24,993 nt of DNA. It comes from a virus. A model generated the notes under the pieces. That model saw only the letters and a program-made list of their open reading frames with translations. It was not told the DNA's origin and did no database searches. A program made the translations under genes and the position numbers. Below are positions 2,878 through 17,806 of this stretch, piece after piece (the first letter of the stretch is position 1; each line of letters begins with the position of its first letter). The stretch spans positions 1 through 24,993 of the IMG/VR virus record IMGVR_UViG_3300042381_001170; one strand, given 5' to 3'.

Positions 2878-3468
2878 CTACTTATATTTCCAAATAAATC
2901 CTCCTGCTGATTTATACCTACCTACTAGGCACGCTGATATGTTTCCTCGATTTATTTTTAGCAGATTGCTAGCTTGTGTTCCTGAAAGCCATTCTGCAAT
3001 ATGTGTTCCGTCTAGCAAATATTGATCGATAGGTTTTACTATCTTAGCTATTCTCTTTTCTTGACAACCTACCCAGTCTGTATTGGCTACGCCTCTAGCT
3101 CTACTAGCTTTTCCTGCAGAAGTGGTGTAGAAAGCTCTCATTGTTGCTGACTGCTTGTCAATGGACTCTTGTGAGTGAACCATCCTATGCTCCACTGTAC
3201 TTTGCAGTTTGCAGTTCAATCCTTTTAGTCCTAATACGTCGTAGAAATCCTGCCAGTGTCTCTCTCGTGTGTTTAGTTCCTCAATACTGCACTCTTCTAT
3301 AACCTCAAAGAGATGTTCACAGAAACCGTACTTTACTAGTGAAGCATAGAGTCTTGTCTGCCCTTTGCACTTAGACTTTTCATAAGACTTTTTTCTCTTC
3401 TCAATACTTACTGCTTGTCCAATATAAATTCTTCCTGTTGGACTTGTAATTTTATAAATTCCTATCAT
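2878..3468 (-). CDS. GIY-YIG homing endonuclease A
   Basis: This 196-residue free-standing endonuclease has GIY at residues 3-5, YIG at 15-17, an Arg at 25, a Glu in NTRERHW (about 69) and an Asn in GLNC (about 85), matching the catalytic set of the GIY-YIG nuclease fold. A variable linker (VANTDWVGCQEKRI) follows, then a C-terminal DNA-binding domain of the NUMOD1 type (AEWLSGTQASNLLKI and a final GGFIWKYK). Such proteins cut a specific DNA site so that their own gene is copied into phages lacking it. It is a close paralogue of the proteins at 13208 and 15061. A 5' RNA element with a kissing loop and terminator (3469-3582) directly precedes the ATG, so expression is likely controlled by transcription attenuation. 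Confidence 0.93.
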   Translation of the reverse strand: MIGIYKITSPTGRIYIGQAVSIEKRKKSYEKSKCKGQTRLYASLVKYGFCEHLFEVIEECSIEELNTRERHWQDFYDVLGLKGLNCKLQSTVEHRMVHSQESIDKQSATMRAFYTTSAGKASRARGVANTDWVGCQEKRIAKIVKPIDQYLLDGTHIAEWLSGTQASNLLKINRGNISACLVGRYKSAGGFIWKYK

Positions 3469-3582
3469 AATAAAAAAAAGCTTAGGCTTTCGAGGTCGTG
3501 ATCTCTACTTGCCATAAGCTTTAGTTGATATTTTCTTTAAATATGTAGTCACGACTCTACGTATATAAATAGCAACTTTTTA
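3469..3582 (-). ncRNA. Kissing-loop RNA leader A of endonuclease A
   Basis: Read on the minus strand, a TATTTATA box is followed by hairpin 1 (GUAG stem 3557-3560, CUAC stem 3545-3548) with the 7-mer GUCGUGA in its loop (3549-3555). After a linker comes a terminator-like hairpin: AAAGCUUA-u-GGC (3511-3522) pairs with GCC-UAAGCUU (3478-3487), then eight U (3472-3479), then the endonuclease AUG after AUU. Its apical loop carries UCACGAC (3495-3501), the exact complement of loop 1. Leader B has identical flanks and a different but also perfectly matching 7-mer pair. The likely role is an attenuator or a stand-alone sRNA of about 90 nt; the family is unknown to me. Confidence 0.75.
3564..3571 (-). 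promoter_or_regulatory. Class 2 TATTTATA box in leader A
   Basis: TATTTATA on the minus strand, preceded by AAAAAGTTGC, lies 3 nt before hairpin 1 of leader A. The same box precedes seven other gene starts in the window. No -35 partner is visible, reminiscent of T4 late promoters, which also use a single AT-rich box. Confidence 0.4.
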
Positions 3583-3774
3583 TGGAATCTGCCTTAAATA
3601 CCCTAGTAAAATTTGATTATTTACTCGATTTTCCATCGTAGTAAAGTCTTTTATTTTTAGCAAATAGTTGAACTGCTCCATTTGAAAGTCCTTGGAGTCA
3701 TTTATACAAGTCTCTTCCCAGAGATCTGTAAGTTCGTATATTTTATTTTTGAATTTGAAACAGTGTTTATCCAT
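3580..3774 (-). CDS. Hypothetical protein (64 residues)
   Basis: This 64-residue protein (MDKHCFKFKNKIYELTDLWE at the N-terminus) is not recognised. It is mixed-charge, has two Cys, and looks like a short alpha/beta protein with a helical C-terminal half (FNYLLKIKDF and LLGYLRQIP). It has its own class 1 promoter, whose TATATT ends only 5 nt before the ATG, so the transcript is probably leaderless. Its stop codon abuts leader A of the downstream endonuclease, meaning that cassette was inserted immediately behind this gene. A terminator stands upstream, so it forms a monocistronic unit. Confidence 0.6.
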   Translation of the reverse strand: MDKHCFKFKNKIYELTDLWEETCINDSKDFQMEQFNYLLKIKDFTTMENRVNNQILLGYLRQIP

Positions 3775-4284: not shown

Positions 4285-4938
4285 TTAGTTTTTCCATTTC
4301 CAAAGAAAACCTTTAGCTGAGTTGTGTCCTTTTTTTCCTCTTAGACATGCCAATACATTTGTGTATCCGTATCCTGATCTACCTATTTCGGCAATATCAT
4401 TCCATACCTTGACGACCTCTTGTGTTGCTTTGTCTATTTGGAGGACTTGTTGATTGTTTTTATATCTACCGTTTTTGTCTCCTACTTTTACATTACTCCA
4501 GACTTTAAGTCTCTGATCTCTTTCCTCCTGTGTCAGTCCTTTGAAGCAATTTGCTTTCTTCCTTTCTTCAGGATCTTTGTACCTTTCCTTGTTTCTGTTT
4601 GAACAGTAAGCTCTGTGTTGTTGTCTTTTGTCTTCGTCCCAGTTTTTGGTATAGTCACCACCTAATCCGCCTTCGGCAATGTTATATAGATCTGCTGTGT
4701 TTTTAATCAACTCCTTCTCTTCTAAGAACATTACTTTTTCTGATTTGCATTCAAGAATTACTTCCCAGGTAAATGACTCTTCCTTGTACTTATTCCAAGC
4801 TCGTTGTAGGTGTACATTGTGATGTCTTTCTTTTTGCAAATCCCTCTTATGCTCTTTCCATCTACTTTTAAGGTTTTTACTACACCCTATATAACAGTAT
4901 CCCGTTACGTTATTTAGTATTCTGTAAATTGTAAACAT
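4285..4938 (-). CDS. GIY-YIG homing endonuclease D
   Basis: This 217-residue GIY-YIG protein has the variant TIY at residues 3-5, CYIG at 15-18, Arg26 in LKSRW, a Glu in FLEEKELI and an Asn in LYNIAEGGLGG. The AEGGLGG that follows is typical of the Seg/SegB-like group rather than the MIGIYKIT group of copies A, C and E. The linker is basic, and the C-terminal QIDKATQEVVKVWNDIAEIG segment with a terminal KGFLWKWK is a NUMOD1-like DNA-binding module. It lies between nrdA and the resolvase-like gene. A 6-bp hairpin (4942-4967) that holds a TATTTATA box in its loop ends a few bases before the ATG, so translation or transcription may be controlled by that structure. It lacks the kissing-loop leader of copies A-C. 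Confidence 0.9.
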   Translation of the reverse strand: MFTIYRILNNVTGYCYIGCSKNLKSRWKEHKRDLQKERHHNVHLQRAWNKYKEESFTWEVILECKSEKVMFLEEKELIKNTADLYNIAEGGLGGDYTKNWDEDKRQQHRAYCSNRNKERYKDPEERKKANCFKGLTQEERDQRLKVWSNVKVGDKNGRYKNNQQVLQIDKATQEVVKVWNDIAEIGRSGYGYTNVLACLRGKKGHNSAKGFLWKWKN

Positions 4939-4941
4939 ATA

Positions 4942-4967
4942 TCCTGCTTTATTATAAATAGGCAGGA
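4942..4967 (-). promoter_or_regulatory. Hairpin around a TATTTATA box before endonuclease D
   Basis: TCCTGC (4962-4967) and GCAGGA (4942-4947) form a 6-bp inverted repeat on the minus strand. The 14-nt loop contains TATTTATA (4953-4960), and the right arm ends 3 nt before the ATG of the gene at 4938. In a transcript that reads through from nrdA, the hairpin could block initiation; a transcript starting at the box would lack the left arm. This resembles the hairpin logic of T4 intron-encoded endonuclease genes, by analogy only. Confidence 0.5.
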
Positions 4968-5002
4968 AATATGTTTTTATCCATCACAGTTTACTGCGTT
5001 GG

Positions 5003-6712: not shown

Positions 6713-7300
6713 TTAATTTGGTTTTTGTTGTTTTCTTTTTTCCCAAGATCGTTTTACAGCTTCTGCTGTTTTTCTTTTTGATTCCTCTGTCCTAGTTGTT
6801 CCAAGTTTACCGTTTGTGTATCCTCTTTCTTTTTTTGTTTTATTAGCCTTTGCGACACTTTCCTCTATCGGTATGAAATCTTTCCGTAATCTCCTTTCTC
6901 TTGTTGCTGCTGTTTCTAGATTGATTCCTTTATTGTGAGGTTCTTGACCTTTTTTAAATCTTCCGGAATTACTAGCCTGCTTCATAGATTCAATATGTTC
7001 TGGAGATTTAATCTTACCTTTTAGATGACTTCCTCCTCCTAGTGCTTCGTTTTTTAAATTATAACTTTGCTTACTTTCTGCAGCATTTAGTTCTACTAAA
7101 ATAAACTCCTCTAATTCTTGAAAATCTTCTCCTTCGTATAGAATCTCCCGAATAAAATTGTTCAAGCCATATTTACTAAATGCTTCTCTAATAAGTTTTC
7201 CACTAGCTTTGTATCCGTCATTAGAAGTTCCTCTGTGTGATCCAATGTACCATTTCCCATTTATTTTGTTAGTCCATTTGTAAACTATTCCTGTTTCCAT
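6713..7300 (-). CDS. GIY-YIG homing endonuclease B
   Basis: This 195-residue protein carries a GIVYKWTN start, KWYIGSHRG (YIG at about 18-20) and a YNLKNEALGGG segment with the conserved Asn. Its subgroup differs from copies A, C, D and E. The C-terminal part has NUMOD3-like basic motifs (KGKIKSPEHIESMKQ and GRFKKGQEPHNKG) and a very basic tail of KR-rich helices (EESKRKTAEAVKRSWEKRK). The gene sits in the nrdB-nrdA interval with its stop touching the nrdA ATG, a typical site for a free-standing homing gene beside its conserved target. Its 5' leader (7301-7417) is nearly identical to that of endonuclease A although the proteins are only distantly related, so the leader moves or evolves semi-independently of the coding region. 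Confidence 0.92.
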   Translation of the reverse strand: METGIVYKWTNKINGKWYIGSHRGTSNDGYKASGKLIREAFSKYGLNNFIREILYEGEDFQELEEFILVELNAAESKQSYNLKNEALGGGSHLKGKIKSPEHIESMKQASNSGRFKKGQEPHNKGINLETAATRERRLRKDFIPIEESVAKANKTKKERGYTNGKLGTTRTEESKRKTAEAVKRSWEKRKQQKPN

Positions 7301-7417
7301 AATAAAAAAAAGCTTAGGCTTTCGAGGGGGATGTCTCTACTTGCCATAAGCTTTAGTTGATATTTTCGATATATTTGTAGCATCCCCTCTACATATATAA
7401 ATAGCAACTTTTTATAG
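7301..7417 (-). ncRNA. Kissing-loop RNA leader B of endonuclease B
   Basis: The architecture matches leader A. Hairpin 1 has stem GUAG/CUAC (7389-7392 with 7377-7380) and loop 7-mer GGGGAUG (7381-7387). The terminator-like hairpin pairs AAAGCUUA-u-GGC (7343-7354) with GCC-UAAGCUU, followed by eight U (7304-7311), and then the endonuclease AUG. Its apical loop has CAUCCCC (7327-7333), the exact complement of loop 1. Relative to leader A, five of the seven loop pairs differ and all differences are compensated, while about 30 nt on each side of the second loop are identical. This is strong comparative support for the loop-loop contact. Confidence 0.75.
7396..7403 (-). promoter_or_regulatory. Class 2 TATTTATA box in leader B
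   Basis: TATTTATA on the minus strand, preceded by AAAAAGTTGC exactly as in leader A, lies 3 nt before hairpin 1 of leader B. If transcription starts here, the RNA would begin at or inside the kissing-loop structure. Confidence 0.4.
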
Positions 7418-7438: not shown

Positions 7439-7786
7439 CTATTTAAAAGAATCTGGTATGTATTCCGGGTTTTTTCGCTTACTTTGTATTACCTGTTTTA
7501 GAAGCTTGATTCTAAAGTTCAACAGTTGAATATCTCTTCTATTAAAGGTTCCCATTATCTTTCCTTTTGCTCCTAAGTTTTTAGTCCATTTTAAATCAGA
7601 TAAAGTTTCTTCTAGTAGCTTTTCCAAATCCTCAGCAGACATTTTCCAAACTACTCTTAAAAAGTCTGCATCATTGGCTCCTCCAAATTCTTGTGAAAAA
7701 ATTTTAGATTCAGCTTCTGCTAATATTTTAGAGTTGTTGGTTAGTTTATTTTCTACTAGGTATTTTTTTAAGTTAAAGTTTTCCAT
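7439..7786 (-). CDS. Putative internal head protein with a capsid-targeting N-terminus
   Basis: This 115-residue protein starts MENFNLKKYLVENKLT, shared almost exactly with the protein at 14188, while the rest of the two proteins is unrelated. After this peptide comes KILAE-A (Leu22-Ala23-Glu24, then Ala25), which matches the T4 gp21 prohead protease rule (Leu/Ile-x-Glu before Gly/Ala/Ser). In T4-type phages, internal head proteins carry an N-terminal targeting peptide that is removed this way. The remaining domain is helical and basic (LSDLKWTKNLGAKGK, RIKLLKQVIQSKRK). A TATTTATA box lies 9 nt before the start, consistent with late expression. The function after injection is unknown, and the prohead assignment is inference. 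Confidence 0.65.
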   Translation of the reverse strand: MENFNLKKYLVENKLTNNSKILAEAESKIFSQEFGGANDADFLRVVWKMSAEDLEKLLEETLSDLKWTKNLGAKGKIMGTFNRRDIQLLNFRIKLLKQVIQSKRKNPEYIPDSFK

Positions 7787-7795
7787 TTTTTTTAG

Positions 7796-7803
7796 TATAA
7801 ATA
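7796..7803 (-). promoter_or_regulatory. Class 2 TATTTATA box before the head-protein-like gene
   Basis: TATTTATA on the minus strand ends 9 nt before the ATG at 7786. It may be a late-type promoter or an AT-rich translation enhancer; the short distance leaves room only for a very short leader. Confidence 0.35.
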
Positions 7804-7822
7804 TGTAATATGTTACTGGTTA

Positions 7823-13190: not shown

Positions 13191-13219
13191 AATATACAAA
13201 ACCTTTTTTAATTTTCCAA
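13191..13219 (-). promoter_or_regulatory. Class 1 promoter of the gp32-uvsX operon
   Basis: TTGGAA (13214-13219) and TATATT (13191-13196) on the minus strand are 17 nt apart. The TTGGAA box lies in the last codons of endonuclease C, so that insertion either brought or preserved the box. The leader to the ATG at 13148 is about 42 nt and very AT-rich. Confidence 0.5.
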
Positions 13220-13987
13220 CTCCTCTTCCTTATATTTCCAAATAAATCCTCCAGCAGATTTACTCCAACCTCTTAAATTATTTGAAATAGTACCAGGAGA
13301 TATTCCTAAGCTATTTCCAGCTTCTGTGCTTGAGTTCCACTCTTTAATAATTACTCCTTCTTTAGAAAATTGGAGTATTGGTTTCCAATGCTTTTTAGCA
13401 ACTTCTATCCAATCTGTATTCGCATTTCTTGCTACATAATCAAAATTAGCAGTTCTTGCTGCCCAATCCGTATTAACGATTCTCTTTTGTTGAAAAGCTG
13501 CATAATCTGTATTTGCTACTGTTTTTTTTGCTCTTATTTTTTGATCCACCTTAGCCTTAATTTCTTTCCCTTTCTGTGTCTGGTAGAAGGCTTTTAAATC
13601 CCTACTCTGCTTTTCTCTATACTCCTTTCCTTCTGGTGTCTGGAAAAATGCTGATCTTCCTATTGATATACTGTTTCTAGTTTCCTGGGAGTGTATTCTA
13701 GGTTTTTCGTCTGTTGCTGTGAGTACGCAGTTCAGCCCTTTCAGTCCCAGTACCTCGTAAAAATCTTGCCAATGTCTTTCCCTTGTATTTAGGCTTTCTA
13801 TAACACATTCTTCTATAACCTCAAAGATATGCTCTGAGAAACCGTATTTTACCAGTGAGGCATAGAGTCTTGGTTGGTTTTTACAATCTCTCAAGTTACT
13901 ATAATTATTTTTTCTTTTCTCTAGTGTTTTACTCTGTCCAATATATATTTTACCACTTGGACTTGTTATTTTATAAATCCCTATCAT
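13208..13987 (-). CDS. GIY-YIG homing endonuclease C with expanded linker repeats
   Basis: This 259-residue GIY-YIG protein is a close paralogue of A: GIYKIT at residues 3-8, YIGQ at 15-18, Arg25, Glu70 in NTRERHW, Asn86 in GLNC. It is longer than A because the linker is expanded: two FxQTxxGKE units (about 114-142) and then four related copies of an Asn-Thr-Asp-Trp/Tyr unit of about 9 residues (158-200, for example NTDWAARTA, NFDYVARNA, NTDWIEVAK). The C-terminal NUMOD1-type domain (IKEWNSSTEAGNSLGI, SAGGFIWKYK) is intact. It sits directly upstream of the gp32 gene, and its own last codons hold the -35 box of the gp32 promoter. A kissing-loop leader with a different sequence but the same design precedes the start. 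Confidence 0.93.
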   Translation of the reverse strand: MIGIYKITSPSGKIYIGQSKTLEKRKNNYSNLRDCKNQPRLYASLVKYGFSEHIFEVIEECVIESLNTRERHWQDFYEVLGLKGLNCVLTATDEKPRIHSQETRNSISIGRSAFFQTPEGKEYREKQSRDLKAFYQTQKGKEIKAKVDQKIRAKKTVANTDYAAFQQKRIVNTDWAARTANFDYVARNANTDWIEVAKKHWKPILQFSKEGVIIKEWNSSTEAGNSLGISPGTISNNLRGWSKSAGGFIWKYKEEELEN

Positions 13988-14108
13988 ATTAAATAAAAAA
14001 AGGAGAAATTAAAAATAACCAGCTGGTACATGGTGTCTTTTTAAAATCTCCGTAATGTTTTTATCGGTAGTACCAGTACCTTCTTATTTAATATAAATAG
14101 CAATTTTT
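13988..14108 (-). ncRNA. Kissing-loop RNA leader C of endonuclease C
   Basis: On the minus strand, after a TATTTATA box, hairpin 1 has stem GGUA/UACC (14077-14080 with 14066-14069) closing a 7-nt loop CUGGUAC (14070-14076). The following hairpin pairs GGAGA (14047-14051) with UCUCC (14002-14006), has a second AU stem inside, and ends in an apical loop holding GUACCAG (14023-14029), the perfect complement of loop 1. A run of seven U follows (13994-14000), and the endonuclease AUG is close behind. Outside the AAAAA-TTGCTATTTATAT start it shares almost no sequence with leaders A and B, so this is architectural conservation. The sequence GUAC is palindromic, which slightly weakens the significance. 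Confidence 0.65.
14092..14099 (-). promoter_or_regulatory. Class 2 TATTTATA box in leader C
   Basis: TATTTATA on the minus strand in the shared context TTGCTATTTATAT seen in leaders A and B, 11 nt before hairpin 1 of leader C. It is the only stretch with clear sequence identity across all three leaders. Confidence 0.4.
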
Positions 14109-14187: not shown

Positions 14188-14541
14188 TTATTTTAAGAAG
14201 TGAGTATATTCTAGTCTATATTGATTCTCTGATGGCATGCTGTCGTAGTTGCGTAGAATTCTTGTTATAAAAGTAACTACCTCGTCTACTAAGGCTTTTC
14301 CGGATAGGCTGCTTCCTGACTTGTTTATATCCTCCAACACTTTTCCTATTAGAACTTCCTTATACTTCCTACCTCTTCCTTGTATCTCCAGTAAATCGTA
14401 GTACTTTGATTTCTTCAAATCATCTAAAGTTATAGATGTACTCTTCTCTTTTGACGTTCTACTAAATATCCCTTCTTGTAATTTTGACTTAGTAGTTAGT
14501 TTATTTTCTACTAAGAATTTTTTTAAATTAAAATTTTCCAT
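14188..14541 (-). CDS. Putative internal head protein with a capsid-targeting N-terminus (second copy)
   Basis: This 117-residue protein starts MENFNLKKFLVENKLT, nearly identical to the start of the protein at 7439, followed by KSKLQE-G (Leu21-Gln22-Glu23, then Gly24), a good match to the T4 gp21-type prohead cleavage rule. The remainder (from IFSRTSKEK) is unrelated to the other protein and is helical with a basic centre (EIQGRGRKYKEVLIGKVLEDI). This is the layout of T4 internal head proteins: a shared cleavable targeting peptide with different cargo. It starts 4 nt after the stop of the hypothetical gene at 14546. About 80 nt of AT-rich sequence without a clear gene separate it from leader C. 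Confidence 0.6.
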   Translation of the reverse strand: MENFNLKKFLVENKLTTKSKLQEGIFSRTSKEKSTSITLDDLKKSKYYDLLEIQGRGRKYKEVLIGKVLEDINKSGSSLSGKALVDEVVTFITRILRNYDSMPSENQYRLEYTHFLK

Positions 14542-17149: not shown

Positions 17150-17806
17150 TTATTTTCTATAATCGAAATTGGCCTTTCGATCATTCTCTAGCTGGGTGTC
17201 TGCATCTGTTACATTAAATGTCTGCGATGTTGGCTGTGCTAATGGTGCTGGTTCCTCTACTAGGTATTTGTAGTCTGTTACAAAGGTTGAAATTCCTGGC
17301 ATTGTAGTTTCCAATGCTTGGATTGTTTTTCTATTTTTAGATTCTGCTCCTTCAAATGGATAGTTTCCAAACATCTTATCTTCGGCTGGTCCTTTTATAA
17401 TCCAATCTACTTCAGCAAAGTTTCTATTTGGGACACTTAGTTTTGTTTGATTATAAGTTGCTTTATCTGTTTCAGCAATCTTATTGTCGTTTTTGTCCTG
17501 GACAAAGTACCTCTTTGCTATGCCATTTTCTTTTTCTGACTTAGTTAGGGTCTTTTTAAAAAATCCTGCTATTGCTGTTCCTAGCAATCCTATTCCTGCT
17601 AGATATATCTCATTATGTCCATTTTTATGATTAGAAACTTTCTGCAGTACTACTTCTGTTTCCATAGGAGATTTTCCAGCATAATAAGTTTTAGTATAAG
17701 TCTCTACATATAGTCCCTTGTAGAATATTGAAGTTCCTCTTATTATAAATTCATTAGCACCTGCTGCTTTTGGTTTTGTATATTTGTTTTCTGGTAAATA
17801 TGGCAT
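17150..17806 (-). CDS. Putative virion-associated protein
   Basis: This 218-residue protein begins MPYLPENKYTKPKAAGANEF, a start seen in structural-type proteins of large Bacteroidota phages (from memory, so tentative). The first part is beta-rich (EFIIRGTSIFYKGLYVETYTKTYY), followed by a Gly/Ala hydrophobic patch (YLAGIGLLGTAIAGFF, about residues 68-83), then a mixed region. The C-terminus is Pro/Thr-rich and ends in a basic NFDYRK. The hydrophobic patch could be a single membrane pass or a buried helix. It is the last gene of the tail block, 12 nt after the hub gene, and is followed by a strong terminator, so it is probably a tail or baseplate component. Confidence 0.65.
   Translation of the reverse strand: MPYLPENKYTKPKAAGANEFIIRGTSIFYKGLYVETYTKTYYAGKSPMETEVVLQKVSNHKNGHNEIYLAGIGLLGTAIAGFFKKTLTKSEKENGIAKRYFVQDKNDNKIAETDKATYNQTKLSVPNRNFAEVDWIIKGPAEDKMFGNYPFEGAESKNRKTIQALETTMPGISTFVTDYKYLVEEPAPLAQPTSQTFNVTDADTQLENDRKANFDYRK

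Follow-up and report, generated by a model that had tools for sequence, protein, structure and literature searches.

Free-standing homing endonucleases (HEs) are very common in phages, and what is known of their control comes mainly from T4-like phages. In the ColE1 RNA I/RNA II pair and the pT181 attenuator, 7-nt kissing loops sit within a conserved frame and can change without loss of pairing, with a downstream terminator in pT181; the partners there are two RNAs from opposite strands, whereas the leaders described below hold both loops in one transcript. Two hairpins joined by kissing loops also occur in the purine and lysine riboswitches. Among the T4-type HEs, I-TevI, I-TevII, I-TevIII, segB and Aeh1 mobE have RNA hairpins and late promoters upstream, and T4 mobE, which lies between the RNR genes, has a weak terminator with ~30% termination (PMC2988022). 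The put RNA of HK022 binds RNA polymerase, is ~70 nt long and has two stem-loops, with putL directly after an early phage promoter (PMC9378689).

The window analysed here, a 24,993-nt stretch of an IMG/VR virus record, carries its genes on the minus strand and encodes a NrdA 94.6% identical to that of Flavobacterium phage vB_FspM_immuto. Three HE genes in it are preceded by folded leaders (A, B and C), with the following features:

2878-3468, minus strand: GIY-YIG and NUMOD-like HE under leader A (PF01541, PF22083)
3469-3587, minus strand: leader A, whole, preceding the GIY-YIG/NUMOD HE
3477-3522, minus strand: hairpin 2 of leader A, 7-mer UCACGAC at 3495-3501, then U8 (3472-3479); from sequence, fold and covariation
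3545-3560, minus strand: hairpin 1 of leader A, 7-mer GUCGUGA at 3549-3555; from sequence and family covariation
3563-3571, minus strand: promoter-like element TATTTATAT of leader A; from motif
6713-7300, minus strand: GIY-YIG-type free-standing HE between nrdB and nrdA, downstream of leader B; from tblastn
7301-7417, minus strand: leader B, whole, ending directly before ATG 7300 of the HE
7304-7311, minus strand: U8 tract after hairpin 2 of leader B, 3 nt before ATG 7300; from sequence
7309-7354, minus strand: hairpin 2 of leader B (terminator-like), loop CAUCCCC at 7327-7333; from RNA fold and family covariation
7377-7392, minus strand: hairpin 1 of leader B, GUAG-A-GGGGAUG-CUAC, 7-mer at 7381-7387; from family covariation
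7394-7403, minus strand: promoter-like element TATTTATATA of leader B; from motif
13208-13987, minus strand: GIY-YIG HE under leader C (PF01541)
13988-14099, minus strand: leader C (family 2), whole, before the HE at 13208-13987
14002-14051, minus strand: hairpin 2 of leader C, 7-mer GUACCAG at 14023-14029, then U7 and ATG 13987; from family 2 covariation
14066-14080, minus strand: hairpin 1 of leader C, GGUA-CUGGUAC-UACC; from sequence and family 2 covariation

These leaders share with the T4-type HEs a 5′ structured RNA and a nearby promoter, here predicted, which would likewise restrict phage HE expression; the T4-type hairpins are single and sequester the ribosome-binding site (RBS) (PMC2988022), whereas the leaders described here combine two hairpins with a kissing pair, end in a U-tract and leave the start codon unpaired. 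The HE under leader B resembles T4 mobE in sitting between the two RNR genes, and the putative weak terminator at the start of the HE gene recalls the intrinsic terminators of T4 mobE and segF; those, however, lie inside the coding region, and the same partial source describes for them neither a kissing partner nor a mobile leader module. Size, the two stem-loops and a position directly after a predicted promoter recall HK022 put, whose paper never uses the word kissing and, in the sections consulted, mentions no terminal U-tract (PMC9378689).

Leaders A and B are built on one scaffold (family 1), in which a promoter-like element, hairpin 1, an AU-rich linker, hairpin 2, a U-tract and the start codon follow in this order. 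Hairpin 2 carries an AGUA/GAAA (loop-E-like) internal loop; in leader B, for which the RNA fold gave a z of -2.95, it consists of an 8-bp outer stem, GGC/GCC, an internal loop AAGUA/GAAA, GAG/CUC and the loop. The earlier note on leader B had described a fixed scaffold with a swapped, compensated 7-mer, and this was borne out: the second 7-mer differs between A and B at five of seven positions, while its flanks are identical, with 34 matching nt to one side and 29, reaching the ATG, to the other. On the minus-strand RNA, loop 1 changes in step, with GGGGAUG (7387-7381) pairing with CAUCCCC (7333-7327) in B and GUCGUGA (3555-3549) with UCACGAC (3501-3495) in A. The further claim that change is confined to the loops needs qualifying: across the family, compensated variation is also seen in the linker and in the stems of both hairpins. 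Read on the plus strand (3563-3580 and 7396-7412), each of the two leaders has a further stem, AGTTG...CAACT, with TTTTT after it, and because of this they may be terminators in both directions.

Pattern scans of IMG/VR with the hairpin-2 core fixed and the loops left free gave 62 distinct matches among the loci taken. Forty of them lay in an AT-rich leader context, and loop 2 had a perfect 7-bp match in the hairpin-1 loop in 40/40; the others, mostly G+C-richer or coding and without a proper partner, look like chance. The exchangeable complementary pair proposed from two leaders is supported, with an unpaired loop in 0/40 pattern-found leaders. Together with structure-only finds, family 1 comprises 45 distinct leaders with 21 distinct 7-mers, membership requiring the 7-bp match. 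Across 37 aligned leaders, the kissing helix was paired in 100% of cells and changed on both sides at six of seven positions, the hairpin-1 stem was paired in 99.3% of cells with compensatory changes at 4/4 pairs, and the covariation score of the whole structure was 0.506, against 0.138 ± 0.011 for shuffled alignments and at most 0.062 with the partners slid. Complete pairing, double changes at 6/7 positions and a score above both shuffles and slid registers indicate that the kissing pair is not due to chance; family 1 is a kissing-loop RNA whose complementary hairpin loops covary. The pattern itself fixed GUAGAGA and CUCGAAAGC, so that their conservation among pattern-found members is not evidence; in members found without it (L042, L217, L244, L270 and L314), the AGUA/GAAA internal loop, which is loop-E/sarcin-ricin-like, is kept and the inner 3-bp stem covaries (GAG/CUC, CAC/GUG, AGG/CCU, GGG/CCC). 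The loop 7-mers have 64% G+C, against 36% for the genome, as would be expected if pairing strength were selected.

Leader C belongs to a second family, which was brought in by a protein search with the leader-A endonuclease and is therefore unbiased as to RNA. Its scaffold, GGAGAUUUUA...UAAUUUCUCC-U6-7, has the topology of family 1 and is unrelated to it in sequence; pairing in the kissing helix reaches 96.4%, and four of its seven pairs have changed on both sides. The same arrangement was found on further scaffolds (L074, L076, L079, L081, L083 and L092). The earlier idea that the loops change fastest failed in family 2, where the pairwise difference was 0.29 for loop 1 and 0.34 for loop 2 but 0.43 for the middle of hairpin 2, with 0.00 for the outer arms and 0.42 for 4-fold sites of the downstream gene. 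The loops are thus outpaced by other parts and resemble helices that accept any complementary sequence; their change is explained equally well by a requirement for complementarity only and by selection for difference.

Scanned for structure alone, 38 of 2730 ORF starts had the architecture, compared with 2 of 8190 shuffled upstream sequences; the shuffled controls kept the T-tract and the contigs had been chosen for holding leaders, so these counts speak of specificity for HE genes and not of prevalence. By inspection, ~36 of the 38 genes are of HE type (GIY-YIG, HNH or NUMOD4-HNH), the other two being one for a MazG-like protein and one (L250) not clearly typed. Outside the HE set, a 9-nt kissing leader on another scaffold stands before a MazG-like gene at 17689 (minus strand) of contig IMGVR_UViG_3300023274_000003 (L316). 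The family 1 scaffold occurs with two GIY-YIG types, an HNH type (MNYQRIYDQI) and NUMOD4-HNH, and the MIGIYKI-type GIY-YIG enzyme occurs with family 1, family 2 and other scaffolds. With one scaffold on unrelated HE classes and one class on several scaffolds, the leader and the enzyme are modules that are exchanged independently of each other. Replication-type operons of small phages likewise have the leader at their head (L107, L116, L120, L122, L126, L150 and L169), one protein of which is DUF6291. Since one kissing topology has been rebuilt on at least two sequence-unrelated scaffolds and unrelated HE classes share the module, the leaders point to a general need to regulate such enzymes in phages whose Bacteroidota-type hosts are AT-rich.

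Leader-like RNAs were also looked for beyond these loci. The leader looks phage-specific, because the strict pattern, which would miss variants, gave chance matches alone in 84,980 bacterial and archaeal genomes. A cellular origin was rejected, the five hits in genome contigs being chance ones that had no hairpin-1 partner or proper U-tract. When leaders B and C were searched by blastn in 50,697 phage records, nothing real came up, and the same structural scan found no kissing architecture upstream of the HEs of Flavobacterium phage FL-1 and crAss001.

In Bacteroidota, TAnnTTTG is known as the -7 element. Of the 45 leaders, 37 have TAnnTTTR or TATTTATA in the 24 nt before hairpin 1, mostly at a distance of 0-5 nt; such a motif is present in 5.5% of random 24-nt stretches. 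In the 24,993-nt window, TATTTATA has nine copies on the gene strand and one on the other, and is probably a phage promoter class; with such an element beside hairpin 1, the RNA would begin near hairpin 1. Several members have a hairpin 1 that extends into the promoter-like element, the 3′ end of the element being inside the extended stem. Minus-strand sites at 4960, 7403, 7803, 14099, 15010, 15726 and 23223 lie ~9-30 nt before several start codons, and the motif stands in front of leaders A, B and C. A scan with the sigma-70 consensus was uninformative. The GIY-YIG gene at 4285-4938 has no kissing leader; a small hairpin, CCTGC-CTATTTATAATAAA-GCAGG, at 4939-4980 (minus strand) precedes its ATG and holds the promoter-like motif in its loop.

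The folded leader is probably an RNA switch or brake that limits the amount of HE made. In the specific form to which we give about an even chance, it would be a terminator-ended, promoter-proximal attenuator or insulator that throttles the genes of mobile endonucleases and is locked structurally by the kissing pair. Hairpin 2 of family 1 has a folding energy of -13.7 to -20.4 kcal/mol, and a G+C-containing stem stands directly before a U-rich tract, as in intrinsic terminators: by a simple count, 43 of 45 members have at least five T in the first six positions scored, a few (L135, L152) having poor U-tracts. Between hairpin 2 and the ATG lie about 12 to 50 nt (~12-16 nt in HE-linked leaders, 24 to ~50 nt in those of replication genes), and as this spacing varies while the U-tract abuts hairpin 2 in nearly all members, the conserved neighbour of hairpin 2 is the U-tract and not the start codon. 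A consensus terminator scan of the window did not list hairpin 2 for any of the three leaders, its rule taking loops of 3-8 nt only and the hairpin-2 stem being interrupted by the loop-E internal loop.

On this attenuator reading, the leader would be a mobile 5′ module of Bacteroidota-type phages with its own promoter directly upstream of hairpin 1. A transcript of ~75-80 nt would start near hairpin 1 and fold hairpin 1 and then hairpin 2; loop 1 would capture the hairpin-2 loop by a 7-bp kissing helix, after which the RNA would reach the U-tract. Hairpin 2 and the U-tract would act as a leaky intrinsic terminator (attenuator or insulator) ahead of the start codon. The majority of transcripts, whether from the leader's own promoter or from the phage operon upstream, would stop there, and a minority would continue into the endonuclease. 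Together, the kissing helix and the loop-E-like motif could build a rigid tertiary structure on which terminator efficiency depends or through which a factor can modulate it, and selection would act on loop complementarity alone, so that the 7-mers drift in concert. The kissing pair and the terminator hairpin appear compatible and no on/off switch is evident from sequence, and their coexistence makes a lock or tuning role likelier than a mutually exclusive switch. A switch by alternative pairing of the GUAG repeat, between hairpins 1 and 2, was rejected, the pairing being lost with hairpin-1 stems GAUG/CAUC, GUGU/ACAC and GUCU/AGAC; a leader peptide or uORF was likewise set aside, the ATG-containing frames of A and B not being conserved in GGUGAGUA-type members. 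Because the HE of leader B sits between nrdB and nrdA, with the nrdA ATG directly following, its terminator would have to leak: efficient termination would silence nrdA, an important gene, since the stretch 7300-6713 has no TATTTATA motif ahead of it. Unless it leaks or is overridden, the hairpin cannot be a terminator. T4 mobE gives a precedent for leakage (PMC2988022).

An unlikely alternative to attenuation is translation control of the T4 type, in which the leader would block the ribosome on upstream transcripts and transcripts from a promoter in or beside hairpin 1 would escape. Promoter-dependent hairpins of this kind are used by T4 I-TevI, segB and Aeh1 mobE (PMC2988022); in HE-linked members, moreover, hairpin 2 ends only ~12-16 nt before the ATG, and the extension of hairpin 1 into the promoter-like element in several members would suit such an escape. 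However, no stem was found to pair with the RBS/start-codon region: in minimum-energy folds of a stretch ending at the start codon, with hairpin 2 ending upstream of the U-tract, the start codon is outside any stem, and the U-tract and AUU before AUG are unpaired. A transcript starting at hairpin 1 would also retain the whole core, and conservation attaches to U-tract adjacency rather than to spacing from the ATG.

It is quite improbable that the leader is a stable terminated sRNA whose loops act in trans, on its own leader or on sister leaders, like pT181 or ColE1, with loop identity as a self-recognition tag. Each leader does look like a complete unit for this, with a promoter-like element, a structured body, a terminator-like end and G+C-rich complementary 7-nt loops. 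The earlier proposal that every leader has a private pair bears on the same point. No genome carried one pair twice and unpaired variants at normal frequency were not seen, both having been looked for, and identical pairs were found in 0/20 same-family pairs within a genome; by permutation, however, 1.70 were expected, with P(0)=0.16, because of which the private tag is undecided, being neither established nor refuted. One 102-kb contig has eight leaders (four of family 1 and four of family 2) with eight different pairs, and another contig has four. Against a tag, near-identical pairs coexist, such as GUUGCAG and GUUGCAU, one base apart, in one 102-kb contig, or GGACCAG and GGACGAG in another single contig; the same pairs recur in unrelated contigs (CCACGAC in 10, CUACGAC in 5 and GGACCAG in 8 distinct leaders), and no target other than the leader itself was found. 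A stricter form, in which terminated leaders act in trans via the loops, each HE leader has its own code and many HEs accumulate only if the codes differ, is very doubtful.

A put-like RNA for processive antitermination, in which the nascent leader would attach to RNA polymerase and carry it past later terminators, is very unlikely. Its ~70-80 nt and two hairpins lie directly downstream of a promoter predicted by motif only, a position like that of HK022 putL (PMC9378689), and in small phages the leader heads replication operons; but a U-tract ends hairpin 2, neither a U-tract nor kissing loops being among the put features in the sections available, and a single short gene, as HE genes are, hardly needs antitermination. 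A ligand- or protein-sensing riboswitch-like leader, with the kissing helix and the loop-E motif as receptor, is the most improbable, as AGUA/GAAA, although kept in the five members found by structure only or protein similarity, is absent from family 2 and the other scaffolds serving the same genes, and no metabolic gene beyond one MazG-like gene is associated, even if the two kissing hairpins recall the purine and lysine riboswitches.

Searches for known relatives point to an RNA family that is absent from Rfam 15 and undescribed, and that many phages of Bacteroidota-type bacteria carry. It is a structured 5′ leader in front of mobile phage genes, and its kissing-loop design, which is strongly supported, is unusual. 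No family of Rfam 15 had a gathering match in the window or reached its cut-off at a leader in the locus searches. Leader B matched RT-19 (RF03073), whose hairpin 2 is similar in shape, at 21.4 bits against a gathering score of 78.3; the match is absent from seven other member loci, and homology was rejected in favour of chance or a shape-level likeness. In the open literature on HE leaders with kissing loops or terminators, we found nothing closer than the T4 reviews and the put RNA. Loops that drift in strict concert offer a clean natural test of the effect of kissing loops on termination and, if the kissing pair proves regulatory, the loop pairs would be ready-made orthogonal parts.

The HE of leader B had no Pfam match at 0.001 and resembles T4 SegB and other GIY-YIG endonucleases by tblastn; the nrdA ATG comes directly after its stop. 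In the immuto phages, nrdB and nrdA are 9 nt apart without an insert, and here this HE (6713-7300) and a 115-aa ORF (7439-7822 region) lie between them. The first nrdA codons read MNIDYSKW, compared with MGVDYSTW in immuto, and the remainder is highly similar, as if the insertion site were at the nrdA start. In one other locus (L009), a tRNA gene cluster and a near-threshold permuted tmRNA (46.6 vs 47 bits), at 263-975 and 2592-2662, lie beside a family 1 leader. The small ORFs at 7439-7786 and 14188-14541 have ~30 N-terminal codons in common, which are partly present in immuto at 1803 too, and differ in the remainder, which suggests a swapped C-terminus.
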